Assembly: GCF_031200575.1 (NCBI RefSeq)
Contig: NZ_CP133597.1
Location: 434,001 to 498,000, forward strand
From: Ferroplasma sp.
GTDB taxonomy: Archaea; Thermoplasmatota; Thermoplasmata; Thermoplasmatales; Thermoplasmataceae
Direction of reading: 5' to 3'
DNA: 64,000 nt
Shown here piece after piece: positions 25,835-40,735 of the stretch. The translations under genes and the position numbers were made by a program. Every line of letters begins with the position of its first letter. The stretch's first letter is position 1. The notes beneath the pieces are model-generated. The model had not been told where the DNA came from, searched no databases, and was given only the letters and a program-made list of their open reading frames with translations.

Positions 25835-26890
25835 TTATTTAGGGACTTCCTGTTTACTCTTTTCTATTTTTTCAGGATTGAATGATATCTTACCGCTGTT
25901 ATATACAAAAGCATACATTATCATCAGCAGTACAAATAGAATTCCACCTATTATGCTTAGCCAGAAATTTGCAGCCTGCATTGAATTTGGTGAGGCAAAG
26001 GCATTTATCGAATAAGCATTCCCTGCAATTCTTGTTATGGGGAGCTCCAGGAACAGCACGGAAATTGTAACAGCAACAAACCAGAATGGTTTATATGATG
26101 CCAGATTTGTTGTAGACTTAGCCATGTAAAGCAGTGGTACTGCAAGGGTTATTATAACAGGCAGTATCATATAGTATCCTATAGACTTTGCTCCTGCCAG
26201 TGTTGCCACAACATTCCATGCATTTACATTGAGGAATAGCCCGAATATTATGGTAAGCAGTGGAACCCAGCTTGTTCTCTTTGCAAGCCTGTAAAATACC
26301 TGTGACATTCCGTATGCTATAAATAATGTGCCGAACAGGAATTCCCAGTATACAGCAGAATAAACAGGAGAGGTAAGGAGCGCAGTGTAATCCACATATG
26401 ACTTTGACAGGTTTACAGTATTCAGATGGAGCAGTGGTGGGAGCGATGGTATTGCTGTAGATACACTATTTCCTACCAGAAGTGCTGCAACAGCTGTGAC
26501 AAACCCGATTACCATAAGGAAAGTTGCACCTGAGTAAAACATCATCAATGGCCTGCTGTCAACCTTTTTCCATATGAATTCTGCATATATTATGGCAACA
26601 TTCCTCAGTATTAATAAAGCAACAAAGGTTCCTATTACCGGTATAAACAGGTATGAGGCTATTGGTGTAAGCCCGGAGTATATCAGCTCAAGTTCCACCA
26701 CAAAGAATACAATCATTGTGCCGGTTATCTCCCATATGGGCACTATATGCTTTAGTACAACTGTTTTATGCTTTTCATAGTTGCTGAATATCGGAAACAC
26801 TGCTATGAATTCAGAAAATAGGAATGTTACCATTGCGGCAATTACTATTTTCAGAAACACTCCATCTGCATTAAGATAAGAAAAAGACAT
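25835..26890 (-). CDS. cydB: Cytochrome bd-type oxidase subunit II
   Basis: The 351-residue, very hydrophobic protein has about nine membrane segments. Its stop-to-start junction with the upstream cydA is a single base, so it is taken as the subunit II partner. The similarity to bacterial CydB is weak by eye, as is usual for the archaeal CydB-like subunits. The partner's identity and the operon support the call. Its probable role is to hold the oxidase together in quinol oxidation to water. Confidence 0.75.
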   Translation of the reverse strand: MSFSYLNADGVFLKIVIAAMVTFLFSEFIAVFPIFSNYEKHKTVVLKHIVPIWEITGTMIVFFVVELELIYSGLTPIASYLFIPVIGTFVALLILRNVAIIYAEFIWKKVDSRPLMMFYSGATFLMVIGFVTAVAALLVGNSVSTAIPSLPPLLHLNTVNLSKSYVDYTALLTSPVYSAVYWEFLFGTLFIAYGMSQVFYRLAKRTSWVPLLTIIFGLFLNVNAWNVVATLAGAKSIGYYMILPVIITLAVPLLYMAKSTTNLASYKPFWFVAVTISVLFLELPITRIAGNAYSINAFASPNSMQAANFWLSIIGGILFVLLMIMYAFVYNSGKISFNPEKIEKSKQEVPK

Positions 26891-28375
26891 TTATCTCGCC
26901 CCCACATTTACACTGTTTATATCCTGACCCGAACTATTAATATTTAGATCCTTTTCAGCCTTTCTAAGTTCATCATCCACATTTGCCAGGTTCAGTACCT
27001 TGGCATTGAAATAGAATGTGAAAGGTATTATTATCAGATAGAATAGAATTATCACTATCCCCAGATACCAAACGATTGTGGACGTGGATGCAGCCTCTGC
27101 TATGGTCATCACACCATAATGCCCTGCTATTATTGGCTGCCCTGCTGAATTGTATGGCATCAGTATTATATAAGGGACCCTTCCAACTTCTGCGGTATAC
27201 CATCCATCTTCCATGGTGAACATTCCAAGGAAACCCATGCCTATGAAGCCGTAGAGAACCCATTTCATGTTGAATATATCTTTTTTCATCAGCCTCAGCA
27301 CAAGAACAATAAACCAGAACAATCCCATTAGCAACCCGAAACCTACCATGAGATCCAGTGTGTCATGTATAACAGATGGCGCCCATGTATAGGATGGGTA
27401 TGAGGAAAGCCCCGGTATGTATCCGGCATTGCCCTTTGTGAGAGGATATGCTAACAGGGACTGTATTCCGGCCAGTGGAATGAAATCTACAGATTTTCCG
27501 TTCACAATAAATCCAAATATATGCTCGGGAGCACCGGACATTACGGGATGCATATTTAGTTCAAGCATTGCATATTTCAGTGGCTCTACCACTAAGAGAG
27601 TTGAGAGTTCGATAGAACCGCTTATACCTATAAGAATTATGTCTACAATTCCGATCGCAGAAAGTATCTTCATTGCGGACCTGTCGATTTTTTTCTCTTC
27701 CTGATTCCTTGATTTCAAATATTTGTATGCAAAATAGGCTAAAAGTGCCATTGATCCTGCGAAGTACATTGCCATGAACATATGGAATAACTCCGGGCCT
27801 GTTGATGGCTCATCAAAGACCTTCAATGGATTTACACCGGTTATAACAGCACCCCCTGAACTGATATATTTTGCTATGTTGAATGACCCTGTGGGTGTAT
27901 TCATCCATGCATTTACATTGGTAATCAACCAGGCCGAAGCACCTGTGCCAAATAAAACTCCCCAGGATACAAGCCAGTGGTTCCACCTGTTTTTGAAGTT
28001 GTCCCAGAAGTATACATAAACCATAAGTGTTATTGATTCAACCAGGAAGGCAAAAACCTCGGCATAGAAACTCAGCATTGCAACAGCCCCTACAAGCCTC
28101 ATGAATACAGGCCAGAACAGCATCAATTCAACCGCCATGAAAACTCCTGATGCAGTCCCTATGGCGAAATTGATTACCAGGGCTATGCTCAATTTATGGG
28201 CAAGAGCCTCATAGTATTTGTTCTTCCTTTTCAGTGCTATATATTCTGCGATAGTTATTAAAAGCGCCATTGCCAGCGTGATTCCTACTATGATGATATG
28301 CGCTGAAATCGTATATGCGAACATTGCACTGTCCCAGACTGGATATGATATTCCCATCTTAATCGAATATAACAT
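26891..28375 (-). CDS. cydA: Cytochrome bd-type oxidase subunit I
   Basis: The 494-residue membrane protein carries CydA features. An early SAHIII histidine (His26) serves as a heme ligand candidate, GTASGVFMAVELMLFWPVF matches the conserved GxxTGxxxE region, and ELFHMFMAMY holds the next histidine. It would be the heme-bearing quinol:O2 oxidoreductase subunit of the respiratory chain. MGISYPVWDS at 28357 is an alternative start. Upstream, an 18-base palindrome (28399-28416) and a divergent regulator gene point to controlled expression, perhaps by oxygen or redox state. Confidence 0.85.
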   Translation of the reverse strand: MLYSIKMGISYPVWDSAMFAYTISAHIIIVGITLAMALLITIAEYIALKRKNKYYEALAHKLSIALVINFAIGTASGVFMAVELMLFWPVFMRLVGAVAMLSFYAEVFAFLVESITLMVYVYFWDNFKNRWNHWLVSWGVLFGTGASAWLITNVNAWMNTPTGSFNIAKYISSGGAVITGVNPLKVFDEPSTGPELFHMFMAMYFAGSMALLAYFAYKYLKSRNQEEKKIDRSAMKILSAIGIVDIILIGISGSIELSTLLVVEPLKYAMLELNMHPVMSGAPEHIFGFIVNGKSVDFIPLAGIQSLLAYPLTKGNAGYIPGLSSYPSYTWAPSVIHDTLDLMVGFGLLMGLFWFIVLVLRLMKKDIFNMKWVLYGFIGMGFLGMFTMEDGWYTAEVGRVPYIILMPYNSAGQPIIAGHYGVMTIAEAASTSTIVWYLGIVIILFYLIIIPFTFYFNAKVLNLANVDDELRKAEKDLNINSSGQDINSVNVGAR

Positions 28376-30603: not shown

Positions 30604-30715
30604 GAAATTGAATTGCCTTTACGCATATATATGCTTTGAAATGGAGAATTGGAGATATTTTTCTTGTCACTGCATATTTATATATATTGGAGCCATATTT
30701 TTAATGGGTGTATAG

Positions 30716-31855
30716 TTGAAGGACGAATATCTAATGATCCAGCAGAGTGCAAGGGAGTTTGCAAAAAAAGAAATTATGCCTGTTGCAGCCAGAATGGACC
30801 GGGAAAATTTCTTCCCCGCTGACCTGTTCAGGAAAATGGGCAGGGAGGGATACCTCGGGGTCACGGTCCCCGAGGAGTATGGTGGATCAGGATCTGATTA
30901 CCTTTCCCAGGCAATCATAGAGGAGGAAATAAGCTATGCTTCAGGTTCTATGGGACTCTCATACGGCGCCCACAGCAACCTGTGCCTGGACAACCTATAC
31001 AGGAATGGCTCAGAATTTTTGCGGGAAAAATATGTACCGCATCTCTGCTCAGGTGAAACTATAGGTTCACTGGGAATGACAGAGCCCTCATCAGGTTCAG
31101 ATGCGCTATCCATGAAAACCACGGCAGAGGAAGATTCTGGAAATTTTAAGATTAATGGAAGCAAAACATTCATCACCAACGCACCATATGCAGATGTATT
31201 CCTGATATATGCACGCACGGGCAGTGATATAACCCCATTTGTTGTGGAATCCAGTGACAGGGGTTTTTCAAGAGGGCAGGAATTCGATAAAACTGGCATG
31301 CGTGGTTCCCCCACAGGTACGATTTTCTTCAATGACATCACACTTGGGCATGAAAGGATTGTTGGTGACCTGAATGGTGGTAAGAAGGTTCTGCTAAGCG
31401 GGCTAAATCTTGAAAGGGCAGTACTGGCATTCAATTCTATTGGCATAGCCAGAAGGGCCCTTGACCTTGCAGTATCATATGCATCTGAAAGGAAGCAGTT
31501 CGGGAGGCCTATAAGCGATTTTGAACTGGTTCAGGAAAAACTTGCATACATGTACACAAAATTCGAATCCTCGAGGCTTTTTGCAATAGAGGCGCTTAAC
31601 AGGGTGCAGAATGACAGGATGGATTCACTGGATGCAGCATCAGCCATCCTCTATGCATCGGAGGCCTCTGAATACATAGCAAGGGAAGCGTTGCAGATTT
31701 TCGGCGGCTACGGGTACATAAAGGATTTTGAAATAGAGAGGGTTTTTAGGGATTCCATACTTTTGACCATCGGTGCCGGAACCAACGAAATCAGGAAAAA
31801 GGTAATAAGCGAGGCACTGGTAAAAAAATACAGGGGTGATAATATTGGCAGATAG
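30716..31855 (+). CDS. Acyl-CoA dehydrogenase, isovaleryl-CoA dehydrogenase-like
   Basis: The 379-residue flavoenzyme has ACAD landmarks: MTEPSSGSDA near 120, the ERKQFGRPISDFELVQ region, and IFGGYGYIKDFEIERVFRD. The C-terminal position where medium-chain enzymes hold the catalytic Glu reads IGAGTNEIR. The alternative base position of isovaleryl-CoA dehydrogenase is kept as Glu233 in GLNLERAVLA. A branched short-chain acyl-CoA, such as isovaleryl-CoA from leucine, is therefore a likely substrate. The start is a TTG that supplies the usual N-terminal residues; ATG at 30734 is the alternative. It overlaps the next gene. Electrons would go to the ETF encoded near 41-43 kb. Confidence 0.88.
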   Translation: MKDEYLMIQQSAREFAKKEIMPVAARMDRENFFPADLFRKMGREGYLGVTVPEEYGGSGSDYLSQAIIEEEISYASGSMGLSYGAHSNLCLDNLYRNGSEFLREKYVPHLCSGETIGSLGMTEPSSGSDALSMKTTAEEDSGNFKINGSKTFITNAPYADVFLIYARTGSDITPFVVESSDRGFSRGQEFDKTGMRGSPTGTIFFNDITLGHERIVGDLNGGKKVLLSGLNLERAVLAFNSIGIARRALDLAVSYASERKQFGRPISDFELVQEKLAYMYTKFESSRLFAIEALNRVQNDRMDSLDAASAILYASEASEYIAREALQIFGGYGYIKDFEIERVFRDSILLTIGAGTNEIRKKVISEALVKKYRGDNIGR

Positions 31856-33104
31856 CCATAGAAATGTTTACATGATTGCAGGTGGCCTGACACAGTTTAA
31901 AAAAACAAATTTCAATGAGGATTTCAGGCTGAATGTAAAGCATTCACTGGATTACGCACTGAAGGATTCCGGGATGAAAATAGATGACATAGATGGATCA
32001 GTATCGGCGTACTTTTCTGACCATCTCCAGGGGCAGCTCATAGCAGGCGCAATGTCGAACGACTTCATTGGACTGGCAGGAAAGCCATCTAAGAGAATTG
32101 AGGGTGGCGGTGCAACAGGTGGGCTCGCATTCCAGACCGCATATGAGGAAATAGCATCAGGCACAATGGATACCTGTCTTGCATATGGATTTGAAAATAT
32201 GTCCCATGTGGGAACATGGCGTGGAAACGATATCATTGCTCTGGGAAGTGATGCCAGCTTTGATTATCCACTGGGAGGATTCTACACTGCATACTACGCT
32301 CTTATGGCCACACGGCATATGTATGAGTTCGGAACCACAGAAAAACAGATGGCCATGGTTTCTGTGAAGAATCATGGAAACGCCATGCATAATCCATATG
32401 CACAGGCACCAATGGACATTACAGTTGATGATGTGCTGAAATCTCCTGTGGTTTCAAGCCCCATAAAAATGCTGGACATATGCCTAATGTCAGATGGTGC
32501 CGCATGTGCCATACTGGCATCGGAAGAGGTCGCCAGATCCTATTCTGGAAAGCCTGTGCTGATAAAATCCATAGGTTCTTCCAGCGATACCATGCGCCTG
32601 GCGGACAGACCCTTCGGCACGGTACCACTCCTGCCCAACGAGACCCCTGATATGTATAAAAACCTGAAATATCCTGGAGTCCACTCATTCCGCGCCGGGA
32701 GGCTTGCAGCCAGAATGGCATACAGAAAGGCGGGCATATCAAATCCTCAGAAAGAAATAGATTTTGCGGAGTTATATGATGCCTACACATCCTCTGAAAT
32801 ACAGGCATATGAGGATATGGGATTCTGTCCATACGGGCAGGGTGGAAAATTCATAGAGGAGGGCAAGTCAATGCTGGATGGGGATATACCTGTCAACATG
32901 GAGGGTGGCCTCCAGGCCTCGGGGCATGCAATAGGCGCAACGGGAATTATGCAGGCAGTTTACGCTTTCTGGCAGCTTCAGGGGACAGTGCATAGGCACA
33001 TGGGCAATAACAGGCTTCAGGTCAAAAACCCGCATTTGGGGATTATACACAGTCATGCCGGAACAGGAGCATATGAGGCAGTGACGGTTATGGAGGCGGT
33101 TTAA
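31845..33104 (+). CDS. Thiolase-superfamily protein lacking the canonical nucleophile Cys
   Basis: The 419-residue protein has the SCP-x/archaeal thiolase fold pattern: LAYGFENMSHV, FAELYDAYTSSEIQAYEDMGFC, NMEGGLQASGHAIGATG and a glycine-rich HAGTGAYEA end. The usual nucleophile motif (Cys-Ala-Ser/Thr-Gly) reads GGGATGG, so Gly replaces the active-site Cys. A DUF35 gene follows after one base, and DUF35 proteins bind such thiolase-fold enzymes. Thiolase-fold aldolases such as Ltp2 also lack this Cys and need DUF35, so a retro-aldolase is possible. A TTG at 31845 behind GGGGTGAT is taken as start. Confidence 0.8.
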   Translation: MADSHRNVYMIAGGLTQFKKTNFNEDFRLNVKHSLDYALKDSGMKIDDIDGSVSAYFSDHLQGQLIAGAMSNDFIGLAGKPSKRIEGGGATGGLAFQTAYEEIASGTMDTCLAYGFENMSHVGTWRGNDIIALGSDASFDYPLGGFYTAYYALMATRHMYEFGTTEKQMAMVSVKNHGNAMHNPYAQAPMDITVDDVLKSPVVSSPIKMLDICLMSDGAACAILASEEVARSYSGKPVLIKSIGSSSDTMRLADRPFGTVPLLPNETPDMYKNLKYPGVHSFRAGRLAARMAYRKAGISNPQKEIDFAELYDAYTSSEIQAYEDMGFCPYGQGGKFIEEGKSMLDGDIPVNMEGGLQASGHAIGATGIMQAVYAFWQLQGTVHRHMGNNRLQVKNPHLGIIHSHAGTGAYEAVTVMEAV

Positions 33105-33105
33105 A

Positions 33106-33555
33106 ATGGGATACGGAAAATTGTTAAAGATAGACCCGCTTGTGGTTGAATGGAACTATACAACTGAATACAGGCATAGCTATGCAGAAGATTCCCCATT
33201 TTTTATAGAACTTGGCAGGGGTAAGCTCCTGGGGTCCAGATGCAAATCCTGTGGATTCAAATACGGGACATACAGGAAATACTGCATGTACTGCGGATCA
33301 GAGACCGAGGATATGGATCTTCCATTTAAGGGAAAAGTCCACTCATTTACAACATGCTATTATTCAGGGGAGACTTTCCGTGGAGATGTCCCTTACATAC
33401 TTGTACTTGTGGAGTTCCCTGGAATCGACTCCCTTTTCATGTCAAGGCTTTTCATGGAGCAGGGAGAAAAACCGGAAATTGGCATGGAGGTAGTTGCACG
33501 GTTTAAAAAGTTCCAGACTTTTACAGTCAACGATGTTTATTTTGTTCCGGCTTAA
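33106..33555 (+). CDS. DUF35 OB-fold/zinc-ribbon acyl-CoA-binding partner
   Basis: The 149-residue protein has the DUF35 architecture. An N-terminal helix region with SPFFIELGRGKLLGSRC leads into a zinc ribbon (CKSCG then CMYCG, near 45-65). An OB-fold follows, beginning at GKVHSFTTCYY. In archaea and actinobacteria, DUF35 proteins form complexes with thiolase-fold enzymes and channel acyl-CoA. It is directly behind the thiolase-like gene, and its end overlaps the convergent MFS gene by four bases. Confidence 0.88.
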   Translation: MGYGKLLKIDPLVVEWNYTTEYRHSYAEDSPFFIELGRGKLLGSRCKSCGFKYGTYRKYCMYCGSETEDMDLPFKGKVHSFTTCYYSGETFRGDVPYILVLVEFPGIDSLFMSRLFMEQGEKPEIGMEVVARFKKFQTFTVNDVYFVPA

Positions 33556-34847: not shown

Positions 34848-36476
34848 TTATGAAAGGCCGGTTATGTGCCCCTCACCATCGATATTTATATTCTCTGCTG
34901 CAGGATGCTTGGGCAGCCCTGGCATGGTCATGATGCTTCCCAGTACCGGAATAATGAAGCGCGACCCGCCGTTAACCATCACAGAATTCACCTTTACCCT
35001 GAAATTTTTCGGAGAATTCAGGAGTCCGGGGTTATCTGAAATAGAAGCCTGTGTTTTTGCCATGCATATATAAAATCCTCCGAAACCGTTCTCCTCAGCA
35101 TGTTTTATATCCAGCAATGCCTCCTTAGAAAAATCAACACCATCAGCACCGTATACTTTTGTTGCTATTTTCTCTATCTTTGTTTTGACAGGGTCATCCA
35201 GCAAATATGTATATTTTATCCTGTTGCTACTTATGGAATCAAGCACAGCATTTGCCAGATCCAGGCCTCCCTCACCGCCATCAGAGTATACCCTGGAAAT
35301 TGCAAATTTTATATTTTTCCTTTCTAGCATTTCAGATACCTTCTTTATTTCATTATCCGTATCCAGAGGGTGGACATTCAGGGCCACAACTGGTTCTATT
35401 CCAAAGTTTCTAACATTTTCAATATGCCTGAAGAGGTTTTGTATTCCGGTTACCATGGCCGGTATATTCTCCACATCTATGTCCTTAGCCCCGCCATGGT
35501 GTTTCATTGCCCTTATTGTGGCAACGATTACTGCTGCATCAACGTTTATATCGGCTTCCCTGGTAACTATGTCCATGAACTTTTCGAAGCCCAGGTCCGA
35601 ACCGAATCCTGCCTCCGTAACTGTATAATCAAAAAGATTCATTGCAGCATAATCACCCAGTATGCTTGATGTGCCATGGGCTATATTGCCGAATGGCCCG
35701 GTATGTATAATTGCCGGAACGTTTTCCGCACTCTGCACAAGATTGGGCTTTAGTGCGTCAGCAAGCAGTGCAGCCATGGCCCCCTCTGCCTTTATGTCCC
35801 TTGCAAAAACAGGCCTATTCTTTGCTGTATACCCTATAATTATATTTCCCAGCCTTTCTTTTAAATCATCATAGCCCTTTGACAATGCCATTATGGCCAT
35901 TATTTCTGATGCTGCTGTTATCACAAAGGAATCGTTGGCAAGAACCCCATTGGACTTCGGCCCATTTCCCACAATAATTGACCTAAGTGAACGGTCATCC
36001 ATGTCTACGGTCCTGGGAAATGATATTTTCTTCGGGTCTATTCCGGATTCATTTCCAAAATATATGTGATTATTTATCATGGCCGACAGCAAATTATGTG
36101 CCGCTGATATTGCCGGAAAATCTCCAGTAAAAATAAGGTTAATTTTATCTGCTGGTTCTACAGTGGATTTTCCGCCACCGGTTGCACCTCCCTTTACACC
36201 AAAACATGGGCCAAGGGATGGCTCCCTTATTGCTATGCCAACATTTTTGCCCATCCTTTTCAGTGCCTGTGCAAGGCCTATTGCAGTTGTGGTTTTTCCC
36301 TCTCCTGCTGGTGTCGGGGTCATTGCTGTCATTAATATAATTTTTCCGCGCTTTTTCCCAGGAATTGCATTTGAAATTCCGATCTTGGCGGCATATCTGC
36401 CATATAATTCATAATCAGTTATTCCAGTATCTTTTATAATTTCAGTTATATCTTTCAACATAACTGCAACATACAT
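34848..36476 (-). CDS. fhs: Formate--tetrahydrofolate ligase
   Basis: The 542-residue enzyme makes 10-formyl-tetrahydrofolate from formate with ATP. The P-loop TPTPAGEGKTTTAIGLAQAL and the highly conserved REPSLGPCFGVKGGATGGG segment near residue 85 are clear. The length is close to the usual 550-560. ATG at 36461 (MLKDITEI) is an alternative start. It lies 27 bases behind the cyclodeaminase gene on the same strand, so the two probably form a folate one-carbon operon. Confidence 0.95.
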   Translation of the reverse strand: MYVAVMLKDITEIIKDTGITDYELYGRYAAKIGISNAIPGKKRGKIILMTAMTPTPAGEGKTTTAIGLAQALKRMGKNVGIAIREPSLGPCFGVKGGATGGGKSTVEPADKINLIFTGDFPAISAAHNLLSAMINNHIYFGNESGIDPKKISFPRTVDMDDRSLRSIIVGNGPKSNGVLANDSFVITAASEIMAIMALSKGYDDLKERLGNIIIGYTAKNRPVFARDIKAEGAMAALLADALKPNLVQSAENVPAIIHTGPFGNIAHGTSSILGDYAAMNLFDYTVTEAGFGSDLGFEKFMDIVTREADINVDAAVIVATIRAMKHHGGAKDIDVENIPAMVTGIQNLFRHIENVRNFGIEPVVALNVHPLDTDNEIKKVSEMLERKNIKFAISRVYSDGGEGGLDLANAVLDSISSNRIKYTYLLDDPVKTKIEKIATKVYGADGVDFSKEALLDIKHAEENGFGGFYICMAKTQASISDNPGLLNSPKNFRVKVNSVMVNGGSRFIIPVLGSIMTMPGLPKHPAAENINIDGEGHITGLS

Positions 36477-36503
36477 TATTGATAGTAAAGATTTTTGCTC
36501 CGG

Positions 36504-37100
36504 CTATAATCTCCTTTCAATTTCCCGGATAGAGTTCATAGAATCCTCAACTGTTTCCATGAAAAGATTCAGCCTTGCCATTTCCTCATACCTGTATTCT
36601 TCATCTTTCTGGAGTTTCAGGTTAATCTTTATATTGTTCACAGATGTGTGTATGGCAGTATATGACATATACGCAGCAGAAATAGTGTCCGTGATAAGAT
36701 TTTTATTTCCATAAACACACAGAAATAATGCATTATTTAGATTTTCCATGGAGACACCGGCTATTCTCCATGATACAGATATACTTTTTTTAATGGCTGT
36801 GTCAAGGGTATTTCTCCTTTTCGGATCGGATTTATCAATGTGCAGTGCATCCATTATGCCCTGAAATGAATCCTCATCATCATTACTAAGCTTCCTGAGC
36901 TTTTCTATTATTTCTCCAGAATCTACTGAAATGCTTTCAAAATTCTCCCTGTGCATTTCCAATTTTTTTTTGCCAAGTGATAAAAGGGAGGCCATTGAAT
37001 TCAGTGATGCAGAAAACATGGATGTAATTGCAGCAGCAGACCCACCACCTGGCGTCGCAGATTCACTTTTCAGTTTTGATATATATTCATCAAGGTCCAT
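36504..37100 (-). CDS. fchA: Formiminotransferase-cyclodeaminase-family protein (stand-alone cyclodeaminase/cyclohydrolase)
   Basis: The 198-residue helical protein has the family signature SATPGGGSAAAITSMFSASL near residues 14-33. Stand-alone members are methenyl-THF cyclohydrolases (FchA) or formimino-THF cyclodeaminases. Next to fhs, the cyclohydrolase role, interconverting 10-formyl- and 5,10-methenyl-THF, is the more likely. The gene is divergent from the ribonucleotide reductase gene; the 224-base gap contains ACCTATTTAGGT at 37202-37213, an inverted repeat with perfect five-base arms. Confidence 0.85.
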   Translation of the reverse strand: MDLDEYISKLKSESATPGGGSAAAITSMFSASLNSMASLLSLGKKKLEMHRENFESISVDSGEIIEKLRKLSNDDEDSFQGIMDALHIDKSDPKRRNTLDTAIKKSISVSWRIAGVSMENLNNALFLCVYGNKNLITDTISAAYMSYTAIHTSVNNIKINLKLQKDEEYRYEEMARLNLFMETVEDSMNSIREIERRL

Positions 37101-37324: not shown

Positions 37325-40300
37325 ATGATAAATGTTTTAAATAATGTTATAAAGAGGGACGGCTCCAGCGTCCCGTTCGACAAGAAAAAGATAGCAATGG
37401 CAATATTCAAGGCTATGCTCTCGGTAAAAACCGGATCAATGGAGGAGGCAAATAAGCTTGCAGATTATGTTACAAAGGAACTGGAAGGCATGGGAAAAGA
37501 GCCCACAGTTGAGACAATACAGGATACTGTAGAAAATGTACTTATGACACATAAAATAAATGGCACCTCATACATATCTGTGGCAAAGGCCTATATACTT
37601 TACAGGGAAAAGAGGAATACAGTAAGGCAGGAGAAGGAATTTCTCGGTGTAAAAGATGACCTGAAACTTAGCGTAAATGCAGTCAAGGTGCTTGAGGCCA
37701 GGTACCTTTTCAAGGATTCAGATGGAAAGATTATAGAAACCCCAAAGCAGATGTTTCACCGTGTGGCAGTGCATCTTGGGATCATACAGGGGCTTTATGA
37801 TTATATATCATACAGGAAAACGGGGAAGCTCCCTGAAAATGGGACCGTATATTCCGGGATAACCAAAACCCAGGACGAAGAACTGAGAAGGGCATTCAAT
37901 GAACTCAGGCAGGAGAAAAGCGTAGATGGCACCTATGAGGAATTCCTGGATTTCATGCAGACCAAAAAAACCATGGTAAACTACTGGATTGATAAATTTG
38001 AAACCATGATGACCAAACTTGAATATGTGCCAAATTCACCTACCCTGATGAATGCCGGGGGTCCGCTAGGGCAGCTCAGCGCATGCTTTGTGCTGCCTGT
38101 GGATGACAGCATAGATTCTATATTTGACACGCTTAAGGCAACAGCAGAAATACATAAATCCGGTGGCGGAACCGGGTTCTCTTTCACCAGGTTACGTGCC
38201 AGCGATGATATAGTGGCATCAACCAAGGGCGTTGCTTCCGGTCCTGTATCATTCATGAGAATATTCGATGTTACCACAGATGTAATAAAACAGGGTGGAA
38301 AGAGAAGGGGAGCCAATATGGGAATTCTCAATTACAACCATCCAAATATAATGGATTTCATAACAAGCAAAGATGCAGAGAACAAAATACTGAGCAACTT
38401 CAATATATCTGTTGGTGTAAATGATGAATTTTTCGAGAAGCTTGACAACGATGAATATATAGACCTTATCAACCCGCGGGACGGCAAGGTAATGAACAGG
38501 GTAAAGGCATCGACCCTGTGGAATTCTATAATAAACCATGCATGGACCACCGGTGATCCAGGAATGATATTCCTCGACGAAATCAACAAGAAAAATCCGG
38601 TAAAGAACATAGGATATATAGAATCAACAAACCCCTGTGTCACAGGAGACACCAGAATATATACATCAGAAGGAATAAAAACTGCCAAACAGCTGTACGA
38701 TGAGGGAGAAAGTTTAAACGTAAAGATTGATGGTAGATTCGGTGGCAGTTTCAAACAGTCCTCAAACGTTATTTATACAGGATTCAAGGATGTATACAGA
38801 ATAACAACAAGTGAAGGCTTTGATATAACTGTTACAGGCGACCACAAAATATACAGTGAAGAGAGGGGCTGGATAGAGGCATTGAAACTTAAAGTAGGGG
38901 AAAAAATTAGGATATTAAACGAGGGCGGATCCTTTGGGCCTCATGGAAACCTGGAGGAAGGCAGGGTTCTTGGATGGCTTGTAGGGGATGGACATGTAAA
39001 TAGAGGAAACAATAACGAACGTGCTGCTCTTTCTTTCTATGATCAGGACAGGGTATTTGCTCCTGAATTTGAAAGCTATGTAAATAACATAATAAGGCCA
39101 TCTATCAATAACCGTGACTACCATGTAGGCATGGTGAATATTGAAAGCAGAAACTGCATAACAATAGCATCAGAAAGACTCAAAGAATTCGCAGCCACCT
39201 ATGATTTAGTAGAGGAGAAACTTAAGGTTCCAGATAATGTTTTTGCCGGTACAATGGAAATGCAAAAAGGCTTTTTACAGGCATTATTTGAGGCTGATGG
39301 AACAGTATTAAAAGCTGGAAAGTCCAGATATGCCATCAGGCTTGGATCTATAAGCCTTGACTTACTGAAACAGGTTCAGACATTGCTATTAAACTTCGGC
39401 ATATTCAGTACTATTTATCAATCCCGTAAAAAGGCAGGCATAAAAATGCTACCAGATGGTAGCAGGAATATGAGACTATACACTGTACATGATTTCCATG
39501 AACTGAACATCTCAGGGAAGGACTTAGTAAGTTACGCGAATTTGATAGGATTTATATCTGAAAGGAAAAATGCCCGGTTAAATGAAATAATAAAAAGTTA
39601 TACAAGGGGGCCCTACAAAACATCTTTCATCGCCAGAATAAACACAATAGAATATTCAGGAAAGAGTGATGTATATGATCTTGTGGAACCATCCACTCAC
39701 TCATTTGTAGCCAATGGAATTGTCGTACACAACTGTGGTGAGCAGCCGCTTTTGCCTTACGAATCATGTAACCTTGGCTCGATAAATCTTGCAAAATTTG
39801 TCGAGAATGGAACATTCAACTATGACAGATACAGGAATACAATCGATGTTGCAACCAGATTCCTGGAAAACGTTGTTGACGCAAATAAATTCCCGGTTGA
39901 ATCTATAAAGAATATGACCAGGAAGACAAGAAAAATTGGACTGGGTATAATGGGATTCGCCGATGCACTTATAATGCTGGGCATACCGTACAACAGCAAT
40001 GAGGCTTTAGAATTCGGTGAAAAGGTGATGAAAACACTTAATGATGAATCACACCTTGAATCCCAGAGACTTGCAGAAGAGAGAGGCGTTTTTCCAGGAT
40101 GGTATGGTTCTGAATACGAGGAGAAGGGAATAAAAATGAGGAACTCAACCACAACAACAATAGCTCCTACTGGAACCATATCTATAATTGCAGGATGCTC
40201 CTCCTCAATAGAGCCATTGTTTGCATTAGCATTCGTAAGGCACGTACTGAATGGGCAGGAACTTCTGGAGGTCAACCCGTTACTGGAGGATGCACTGAAA

Positions 40301-40735
40301 TCCAGAAACCTGTTTTCACAGGAAATCATGGAAAAGATAGCAGAAACCGGCAAGCTGGGAAATCTTGACCTGCCTGAGGACATAAAAAAACTCTTCGTAA
40401 CGGCCCAGGAAATTGATCCGGACTGGCACGTACTGATGCAGGCAACATTCCAGAAATACTGCGATTCCGGCGTTTCAAAGACAATAAACCTGCCCTTCGA
40501 GGCAACTCCTGATGATATTGCCAAATCATACCGCCTTGCAAAGGAACTCCACTGCAAGGGAATAACAGTATACAGGGATAGAAGCAAGAGCCAGCAGGTG
40601 CTCTATGCAGGTACAGGCCAGAAAAAGAGCGATGAGGAAAAAAAAATTGACCTCACCATGAAGATGCCTGATAAGCTTTTGAAGCTGGATGCCACATTTG
40701 ACCCTGCATGCCCGACAGGAAAATGTGACCTGTAA
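37325..40735 (+). CDS. nrdJ: Class II (B12-dependent) ribonucleotide reductase precursor with intein
   Basis: The 1136-residue precursor includes a 366-residue intein, leaving a reductase of 770 residues. It opens with an ATP-cone-like region (VIKRDGSSVPFDKKKIAMAIFKAM). It then has SACFVLPVDDSI with the first active-site Cys, and HKSGGGTGFSFTRLR. The active-site NPC-GEQPL motif is rebuilt only after splicing. A C-terminal CPTGKC pair can act as the shuttle dithiol. The enzyme reduces ribonucleotides for DNA synthesis using adenosylcobalamin and no oxygen. The TATA-like GTTTTAAAT near 37279 suggests a leader of about 15-20 bases. Confidence 0.95.
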   Translation: MINVLNNVIKRDGSSVPFDKKKIAMAIFKAMLSVKTGSMEEANKLADYVTKELEGMGKEPTVETIQDTVENVLMTHKINGTSYISVAKAYILYREKRNTVRQEKEFLGVKDDLKLSVNAVKVLEARYLFKDSDGKIIETPKQMFHRVAVHLGIIQGLYDYISYRKTGKLPENGTVYSGITKTQDEELRRAFNELRQEKSVDGTYEEFLDFMQTKKTMVNYWIDKFETMMTKLEYVPNSPTLMNAGGPLGQLSACFVLPVDDSIDSIFDTLKATAEIHKSGGGTGFSFTRLRASDDIVASTKGVASGPVSFMRIFDVTTDVIKQGGKRRGANMGILNYNHPNIMDFITSKDAENKILSNFNISVGVNDEFFEKLDNDEYIDLINPRDGKVMNRVKASTLWNSIINHAWTTGDPGMIFLDEINKKNPVKNIGYIESTNPCVTGDTRIYTSEGIKTAKQLYDEGESLNVKIDGRFGGSFKQSSNVIYTGFKDVYRITTSEGFDITVTGDHKIYSEERGWIEALKLKVGEKIRILNEGGSFGPHGNLEEGRVLGWLVGDGHVNRGNNNERAALSFYDQDRVFAPEFESYVNNIIRPSINNRDYHVGMVNIESRNCITIASERLKEFAATYDLVEEKLKVPDNVFAGTMEMQKGFLQALFEADGTVLKAGKSRYAIRLGSISLDLLKQVQTLLLNFGIFSTIYQSRKKAGIKMLPDGSRNMRLYTVHDFHELNISGKDLVSYANLIGFISERKNARLNEIIKSYTRGPYKTSFIARINTIEYSGKSDVYDLVEPSTHSFVANGIVVHNCGEQPLLPYESCNLGSINLAKFVENGTFNYDRYRNTIDVATRFLENVVDANKFPVESIKNMTRKTRKIGLGIMGFADALIMLGIPYNSNEALEFGEKVMKTLNDESHLESQRLAEERGVFPGWYGSEYEEKGIKMRNSTTTTIAPTGTISIIAGCSSSIEPLFALAFVRHVLNGQELLEVNPLLEDALKSRNLFSQEIMEKIAETGKLGNLDLPEDIKKLFVTAQEIDPDWHVLMQATFQKYCDSGVSKTINLPFEATPDDIAKSYRLAKELHCKGITVYRDRSKSQQVLYAGTGQKKSDEEKKIDLTMKMPDKLLKLDATFDPACPTGKCDL
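38636..39733 (+). mobile_element. Intein with LAGLIDADG homing endonuclease inside nrdJ
   Basis: Residues 438-803 of the precursor form the intein. It starts with Cys438 (CVTGDTRIYTSEG, block A), has TGDHK (block B) and ends in VVHN followed by Cys804. Two endonuclease motifs, VLGWLVGDGHV and LQALFEADGTV, mark a dodecapeptide (LAGLIDADG) homing endonuclease. All splice-junction residues (Cys1, His-Asn, Cys+1) are present, so splicing should work. The insertion falls immediately before the reductase's catalytic cysteine. Confidence 0.95.

Follow-up and report, generated by a model that had tools for sequence, protein, structure and literature searches.

The window, a 64-kb stretch covering 434-498 kb of a 1.86-Mb single-contig archaeal genome, contains an operon of three overlapping or abutting genes on the + strand (30716-33555), encoding an acyl-CoA dehydrogenase (ACAD), a thiolase-fold protein devoid of the nucleophilic Cys of thiolases, and a DUF35 protein. 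The window orthologues group next to Ferroplasma acidarmanus and Acidiplasma aeolicum. A sequence-only reading of the window had likened the three genes to an acyl-CoA retro-aldolase module; their position and strand were confirmed, and Pfam matches of the three products (ACAD; Thiolase_N/Thiolase_C_1; OB_ChsH2_C and zf-ChsH2), together with searches against solved structures, bear out the identity of each. The features of the operon are:

30716..31855, + strand: ACAD of the isovaleryl-CoA dehydrogenase (IVD) type, 379 amino acids, TTG start (Pfam ACAD domains; solved relatives)
31836..33104, + strand: Cys-less thiolase-fold protein of family PRK06365, 422 amino acids, probable catalytic subunit (NF004982 score, motifs, AlphaFold2 model)
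33106..33555, + strand: DUF35 protein with a CX2C-X10-CX2C zinc ribbon and an OB fold, presumed to pair with the thiolase-like subunit (Pfam)
31835..31855, + strand: overlap of the ACAD and thiolase-like genes, with a GGTGAT Shine-Dalgarno-like site (sequence read directly)
30675..30687, + strand: putative TATA-like element, weak and picked out visually, about 30 bases 5' of the first ACAD codon

The TTG at 31845 is a likely alternative start of the thiolase-like gene, because the Shine-Dalgarno-like site lies at 31835. No HMG-CoA synthase (HMGCS) gene adjoins the operon.

Active site and family of the thiolase-fold protein

The thiolase-like protein was aligned with two thiolases, the archaeal 6ESQ and the SCP2-type 6HSJ, and with two aldolases, Ltp2 (6OK1) and Sal (9MYR). 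Gly92 stands where 6ESQ, 7YVY and 6HSJ carry the nucleophilic Cys, in agreement with the loss claimed by the sequence-only reading. In the HDCF motif of thiolases, Tyr314 replaces the His and Ala316 the acid/base Cys, resulting in YDAY; neither of the two Cys residues that mark a thiolase is thus present. The His of the GHxxGATG motif is kept (His364, in GHAIGATG), and an HSHAGTG loop occupies positions 405-411. Ltp2 uses Tyr294 (YDHF) as base and Tyr344 as acid. Sal, likewise with Gly at the nucleophile site, uses Tyr302 and Cys304 in these roles and has Gln352 where Ltp2 has Tyr344; in both enzymes, mutation showed the Tyr to be the catalytic base (PMC12329534). Tyr314 and His364 fall in the same alignment columns as Tyr294 and Tyr344 of Ltp2, and they are separated by 50 residues, as are 294/344 in Ltp2 and 302/352 in Sal. 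Of the two residues of the aldolase dyad, the protein thus has the first, the Tyr, and carries a His in place of the second. The same Gly, Tyr and His are found at the three sites of 4U4E, an uncharacterised structure of the Ltp/Sal clade.

The protein reached 695.6 bits against NF004982 (PRK06365), just over the curated cut-off of 695. This family is annotated in NCBIfam as 'thiolase domain-containing protein' and is uncharacterised; literature searches on PRK06365 function gave no match. When one genome of each species was scanned, at least 560 PRK06365 loci emerged across archaea and bacteria, many of them on contigs of metagenome-assembled genomes whose binning may be wrong. Hosts beyond Thermoplasmatales included Nitrospirota, Planctomycetota, Acidobacteriota, Bacillota and Geobacteraceae, among others. 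Nine residues of the catalytic region (Gly91, Gly92, Gly95, Glu312, Asp315, Asn354, His364, His405 and His407) were invariant in 81 sequences across phyla, so the active site is maintained and not in decay. Since Gly occupies the nucleophile site in 81 of 81 sequences, the loss of the Cys is no sequencing or annotation accident. A PRK06365 paralogue with its own DUF35 (TTGGATGG, HDAF, HSIGGPG), also Cys-less, was observed in several genomes of the same family (L039, L040, L041 and L042).

The AlphaFold2 model of the protein (predicted local distance difference test score 88) adopts a thiolase fold, with template modelling (TM) scores of 0.76 to 6OK1 and 0.78 to 9MYR. In a tree rooted on FadA-type thiolases from the same genome, the PRK06365 clade was recovered with a support of 100/98, and its sister was the Ltp2/Sal clade (97/92; 93/83 without the motif columns). 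A placement among active archaeal thiolases had been named beforehand as the outcome that would contradict an aldolase; in the best tree PRK06365 lies outside the active archaeal Cys-thiolases, and its exact sister is unsure.

Operon partners and genomic context

The DUF35 gene is the next gene in nearly all PRK06365 loci. The four zinc Cys of its product were invariant in 24 relatives, and a Foldseek comparison of the DUF35 model gave as closest structure 6OK1_B, the DUF35 chain of the Ltp2 aldolase. The adjoining gene and the predicted fold are in line with the proposed DUF35 partner, and the thiolase-like protein and DUF35 would form a complex.

The best solved relatives of the ACAD are the isovaleryl-CoA dehydrogenases 4O5M (44% identity), 4KTO and 1IVH. 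As in 4O5M, it carries a Glu in the segment SGLNLERAV and an IGAGT motif lacking Glu in place of EGT. A Glu in the helix G segment without Glu in the EGT motif is what we take to be the catalytic arrangement of isovaleryl-CoA dehydrogenase, and these motifs uphold the assignment made from the sequence alone. An ACAD gene adjoins the PRK06365 gene in 27 of the 70 loci with readable context; on the family tree this adjacency must have been gained or lost 8 times, so the link looks functional and made several times. The three-part unit is thus not due to chance. The thiolase-like protein is not peculiar to one archaeon but represents one lineage of a large family. An adjacent ACAD accompanied 10 of the 11 Tyr314 sequences; no statistical claim is made on this linkage, since the Tyr needs just 2 changes on the tree. 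IVD-type ACADs (LERAV Glu, GAGT) were found in the window clade, and ACADs of the short-chain acyl-CoA dehydrogenase (SCAD) type (GGR, EGT) in bacteria and in family f4. The ThyX, thermosome and succinyl-CoA synthetase genes beside archaeal orthologues were judged to be housekeeping synteny and discarded as partners.

In 27 bacterial loci, 13 ACADs were among the nearest genes, together with acyl-CoA mutases. The large subunit of such a mutase was encoded near the PRK06365 gene in ten bacterial loci, mostly accompanied by a small B12 subunit encoded separately. Among solved structures this large subunit is closest to 2-hydroxyisobutyryl-CoA mutase; Phe and Gln occupy its sites for Tyr89 and Arg207 of methylmalonyl-CoA mutase, which is the isobutyryl-CoA-mutase pattern. 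A metallo-beta-lactamase-fold hydrolase was recurrent near bacterial mutase and PRK06365 genes (L105, L110, L112 and L123). In Scalindua rubra (L119), the neighbours of the PRK06365 gene encode a mutase, BKACE, 3-hydroxybutyryl-CoA dehydrogenase and lysine 5,6-aminomutase, so that a Cys-less thiolase without evident role stands in what resembles a lysine-fermentation cluster.

Genome content was assessed by searching for one protein family at a time. The window genome contains 2-oxoacid dehydrogenase E1 alpha, E1 beta and lipoyl-domain genes and another, fused E1, and no biotin-dependent carboxyltransferase was found in it. Because the former are present and the latter is absent, isovaleryl-CoA is probably made and oxidised to 3-methylcrotonyl-CoA, but without carboxylation. 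Outside the operon there are four crotonase genes and one MaoC gene of the hydratase type, and a single neutral-acyl mutase, distant from the operon, with a B12 subunit and a MeaB-type GTPase. Among 41 genomes of the order, a carboxyltransferase was found in five (G025, G028, G032, G035 and G038, from families f2 and f5), all of them without a strong PRK06365 match, and the genomes with PRK06365 had no carboxyltransferase. In families f1 and f3, genomes with PRK06365 also have IVD-type ACAD orthologues (at least 53% identity), including those in which the two genes are not linked. Both patterns rest on few evolutionary events.

Proposed reaction and competing explanations

We tentatively propose that the thiolase-fold protein acts as a Cys-independent C-C lyase in acyl-CoA degradation, a role to which we give somewhat less than even weight. 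With DUF35 it would form a complex that binds CoA and cleaves a C-C bond in a 3-hydroxyacyl-CoA by retro-aldol chemistry, with no acyl-enzyme intermediate. The substrate would sit in the space vacated by the Cys at Gly92; Tyr314, by analogy with the Tyr of Ltp2 and Sal, would accept the proton of the 3-hydroxyl, the C2-C3 bond would then break, and His364, which aligns with the acid Tyr344 of Ltp2, would protonate the acyl-CoA enolate. In the HDAY majority of PRK06365, His314 and His364 might act as the pair on other substrates. The specific substrate 3-hydroxyisovaleryl-CoA, split to acetone and acetyl-CoA, is a more doubtful proposal. A branched-chain 2-oxoacid dehydrogenase would yield isovaleryl-CoA, the operon ACAD would oxidise it to 3-methylcrotonyl-CoA, and an unlinked crotonase or MaoC hydratase would convert this into 3-hydroxyisovaleryl-CoA for cleavage by the complex. 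As oxidation to a 3-ketone is impossible for such a tertiary 3-alcohol, thiolysis is not available and, as for Ltp2, the chemistry leaves retro-aldol cleavage. The acetone route would stand in for methylcrotonyl-CoA carboxylase; literature searches for a leucine-to-acetone CoA lyase gave no match. The broadest version of the proposal is slightly more doubtful still: PRK06365/DUF35 pairs would be widespread non-steroid thiolase-fold retro-aldolases, used by Ferroplasma-like archaea in a biotin-free route from leucine (or isoprenoids) to acetone and acetyl-CoA, with a mutase route for valine.

Several observations weigh against the proposed lyase. Most PRK06365 members have His at position 314 (71 of 81), and the aldolase-like Tyr is therefore a lineage-specific, minority state: its ten carriers in this set are nine Ferroplasma/Acidiplasma-type sequences, which also have Glu356 and further fixed changes in common, and one Bacillota protein, with L021 as an eleventh case. 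Among the sequences checked, Tyr314 was limited to the Ferroplasma/Acidiplasma lineage, L021 and L092. The second catalytic residue, as read from the alignment, matches neither known aldolase. An aldolase acting after an ACAD, as originally suggested, fits the presence of an ACAD in the operon but needs an intermediate hydratase step, and no hydratase gene was found within the operon, whereas Ltp2 has ChsH1-H2 and Sal has Shy. The nearest solved folds are the Cys-thiolases 6ET9/6ESQ (TM 0.83-0.84), and the alternative grouping of PRK06365 with archaeal HMGCS-type thiolases was not rejected by the approximately unbiased (AU) test (p-AU 0.078), although motifs and context rule out assigning the protein to that type. 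One substrate common to the whole family is unlikely, because the bacterial partner ACADs are of the SCAD and not of the IVD type, and the anti-correlation between carboxyltransferase and PRK06365 may reflect one or two evolutionary events. Furthermore, the HMGCS-type thiolase of the genome, encoded in a separate set at 325-328 kb (L004, L006) with a DUF35 gene downstream, lacks the Cys and the His (SSTASG, with Thr for Cys; HDSF; GDPYGAVG, with GDP for GHP), so that in the window lineage the archaeal thiolase/HMGCS complex may contain a thiolase subunit devoid of catalytic activity.

That dead thiolase subunits seem to exist in the lineage favours an inactive scaffold, in which the thiolase-like protein and DUF35 would bind CoA and retain acyl-CoA or pass it on to a partner enzyme (the ACAD in the window, the mutase in bacteria), much as a thiolase/DUF35 pair channels intermediates to HMG-CoA synthase. 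The absence of both catalytic Cys and the change of partner genes between loci point in the same direction. In contrast to the decayed HMGCS-type subunit, however, none of the 81 sequences departs from His364, Asp315, Glu312, the GG segment or the HSHAGTG loop, and many PRK06365 members have no neighbouring ACAD or mutase; we regard a scaffold as unlikely, though of some weight. Comparably unlikely is a variant that overlaps the proposed lyase, with the same retro-aldol chemistry on another substrate: a beta-methyl-branched acyl-CoA derived from isoprenoid lipids, 3-hydroxyisobutyryl-CoA (cleaved to formaldehyde and propionyl-CoA), or the products of the bacterial neutral-acyl mutases. An isobutyryl-CoA-mutase-like enzyme is encoded directly upstream in bacterial loci, C1-folate genes adjoin the window operon, and Thermoplasmatales are thought to feed on lysed-cell lipids (PMC3750248); but the IVD-type ACAD of the window fits short-chain 3-methyl branching, and the mutase of the genome lies at a separate locus.

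Retention of the His of GHxxGATG and the Cys at position 362, two residues before His364, in 56 of the 81 members would suit a thiolase using a different nucleophile. That residue is, however, Ser in the window protein and 20 others and Ala in 4, and the remaining conserved Cys (114, 216 and 331) lie outside the known catalytic positions; Cys362 was accordingly rejected as the nucleophile, and a thiolase of this kind is highly improbable. A role as Friedel-Crafts acylase (PhlABC) was discarded because it requires Cys. Ketosynthases whose Cys is replaced catalyse decarboxylation, and some other Cys-free reaction, such as decarboxylation of a malonyl-type or 3-oxo acid CoA thioester through the His364/His405/His407 cluster, is improbable, though less so than a thiolase with another nucleophile. 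The invariant His407 in the CxG loop, found only in PRK06365 among the sequences compared, and the slow malonyl-CoA decarboxylase activity of TbSLP, a related Cys-less protein, argue for it, whereas CtSal gave no malonyl-CoA decarboxylation (PMC12329534) and the host genome has no biotin-dependent carboxyltransferase for malonyl- or methylmalonyl-CoA.

If the retro-aldolase proposal is true, thiolase-fold retro-aldolases would be common in archaea and many bacterial phyla, beyond steroid degraders, and would include a third catalytic arrangement, a Tyr/His or His/His dyad. It would also explain leucine carbon handling in acidophilic archaea without methylcrotonyl-CoA carboxylase, and would bear on a protein family that comprises many hundreds of genes and has no assigned function.

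Regarding other genes of the window, a formate-tetrahydrofolate ligase gene and a methenyl-tetrahydrofolate cyclohydrolase-like gene (34848-37100) are convergent to the operon, with synteny conserved in the Ferroplasma clade. The region 37325-40735 encodes a ribonucleotide reductase large chain with an intein (splicing and LAGLIDADG domains), and at 25835-28375 a cytochrome bd-type oxidase subunit I gene precedes that of a companion membrane protein without Pfam match.

Comparison with known systems

The Ltp2-ChsH2 steroid side-chain aldolase (TcLtp2, 6OK1) resembles the window pair in the Gly for Cys, in the Tyr that starts YDxF/Y and in a DUF35 with a C4 zinc ribbon, and its substrate is a tertiary beta-alcohol, the same type as proposed for the window complex. 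On the other hand, the window protein has His364 for the acid Tyr344, Ala316 for His296, a kept GHxxGATG and NMEGG instead of the NTHGGQ loop of Ltp2; it has no linked MaoC hydratase and belongs to a separate clade. The Sal-Shy bile-acid aldolase (CtSal, 9MYR) is likewise similar in the Gly at the Cys site, the Tyr base in YDxY and the DUF35 partner, and differs in the acid Cys304 (Ala316 in the window), in a C3H1 instead of a C4 zinc site and in its hydratase fusion. Membership in the Ltp2/Sal group was rejected on the PRK07855 (lipid-transfer protein) score of 147.8 bits, against a cut-off of 469, and on the second catalytic residue, His364 for Ltp2 Tyr344 and Ala316 for Sal Cys304. Hence, the suggested resemblance to Ltp2 holds for the lost Cys, for Tyr314 at the place of the base Tyr294/Tyr302 and for DUF35, but does not extend to membership.

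The archaeal acetoacetyl-CoA thiolase/DUF35/HMG-CoA synthase complex (6ESQ) is the closest solved structure in overall fold and sequence and also has a DUF35 partner; it differs in having the catalytic Cys and HDCF and in working with HMG-CoA synthase, and a version of it is encoded at another place in the window genome. As for isovaleryl-CoA dehydrogenase (4O5M, 1IVH), the window ACAD shares its type of base and the GAGT motif. The window protein and PRK06365 have in common the Gly, HDAY/YDAY, GHxxGATG and HSHAGTG.

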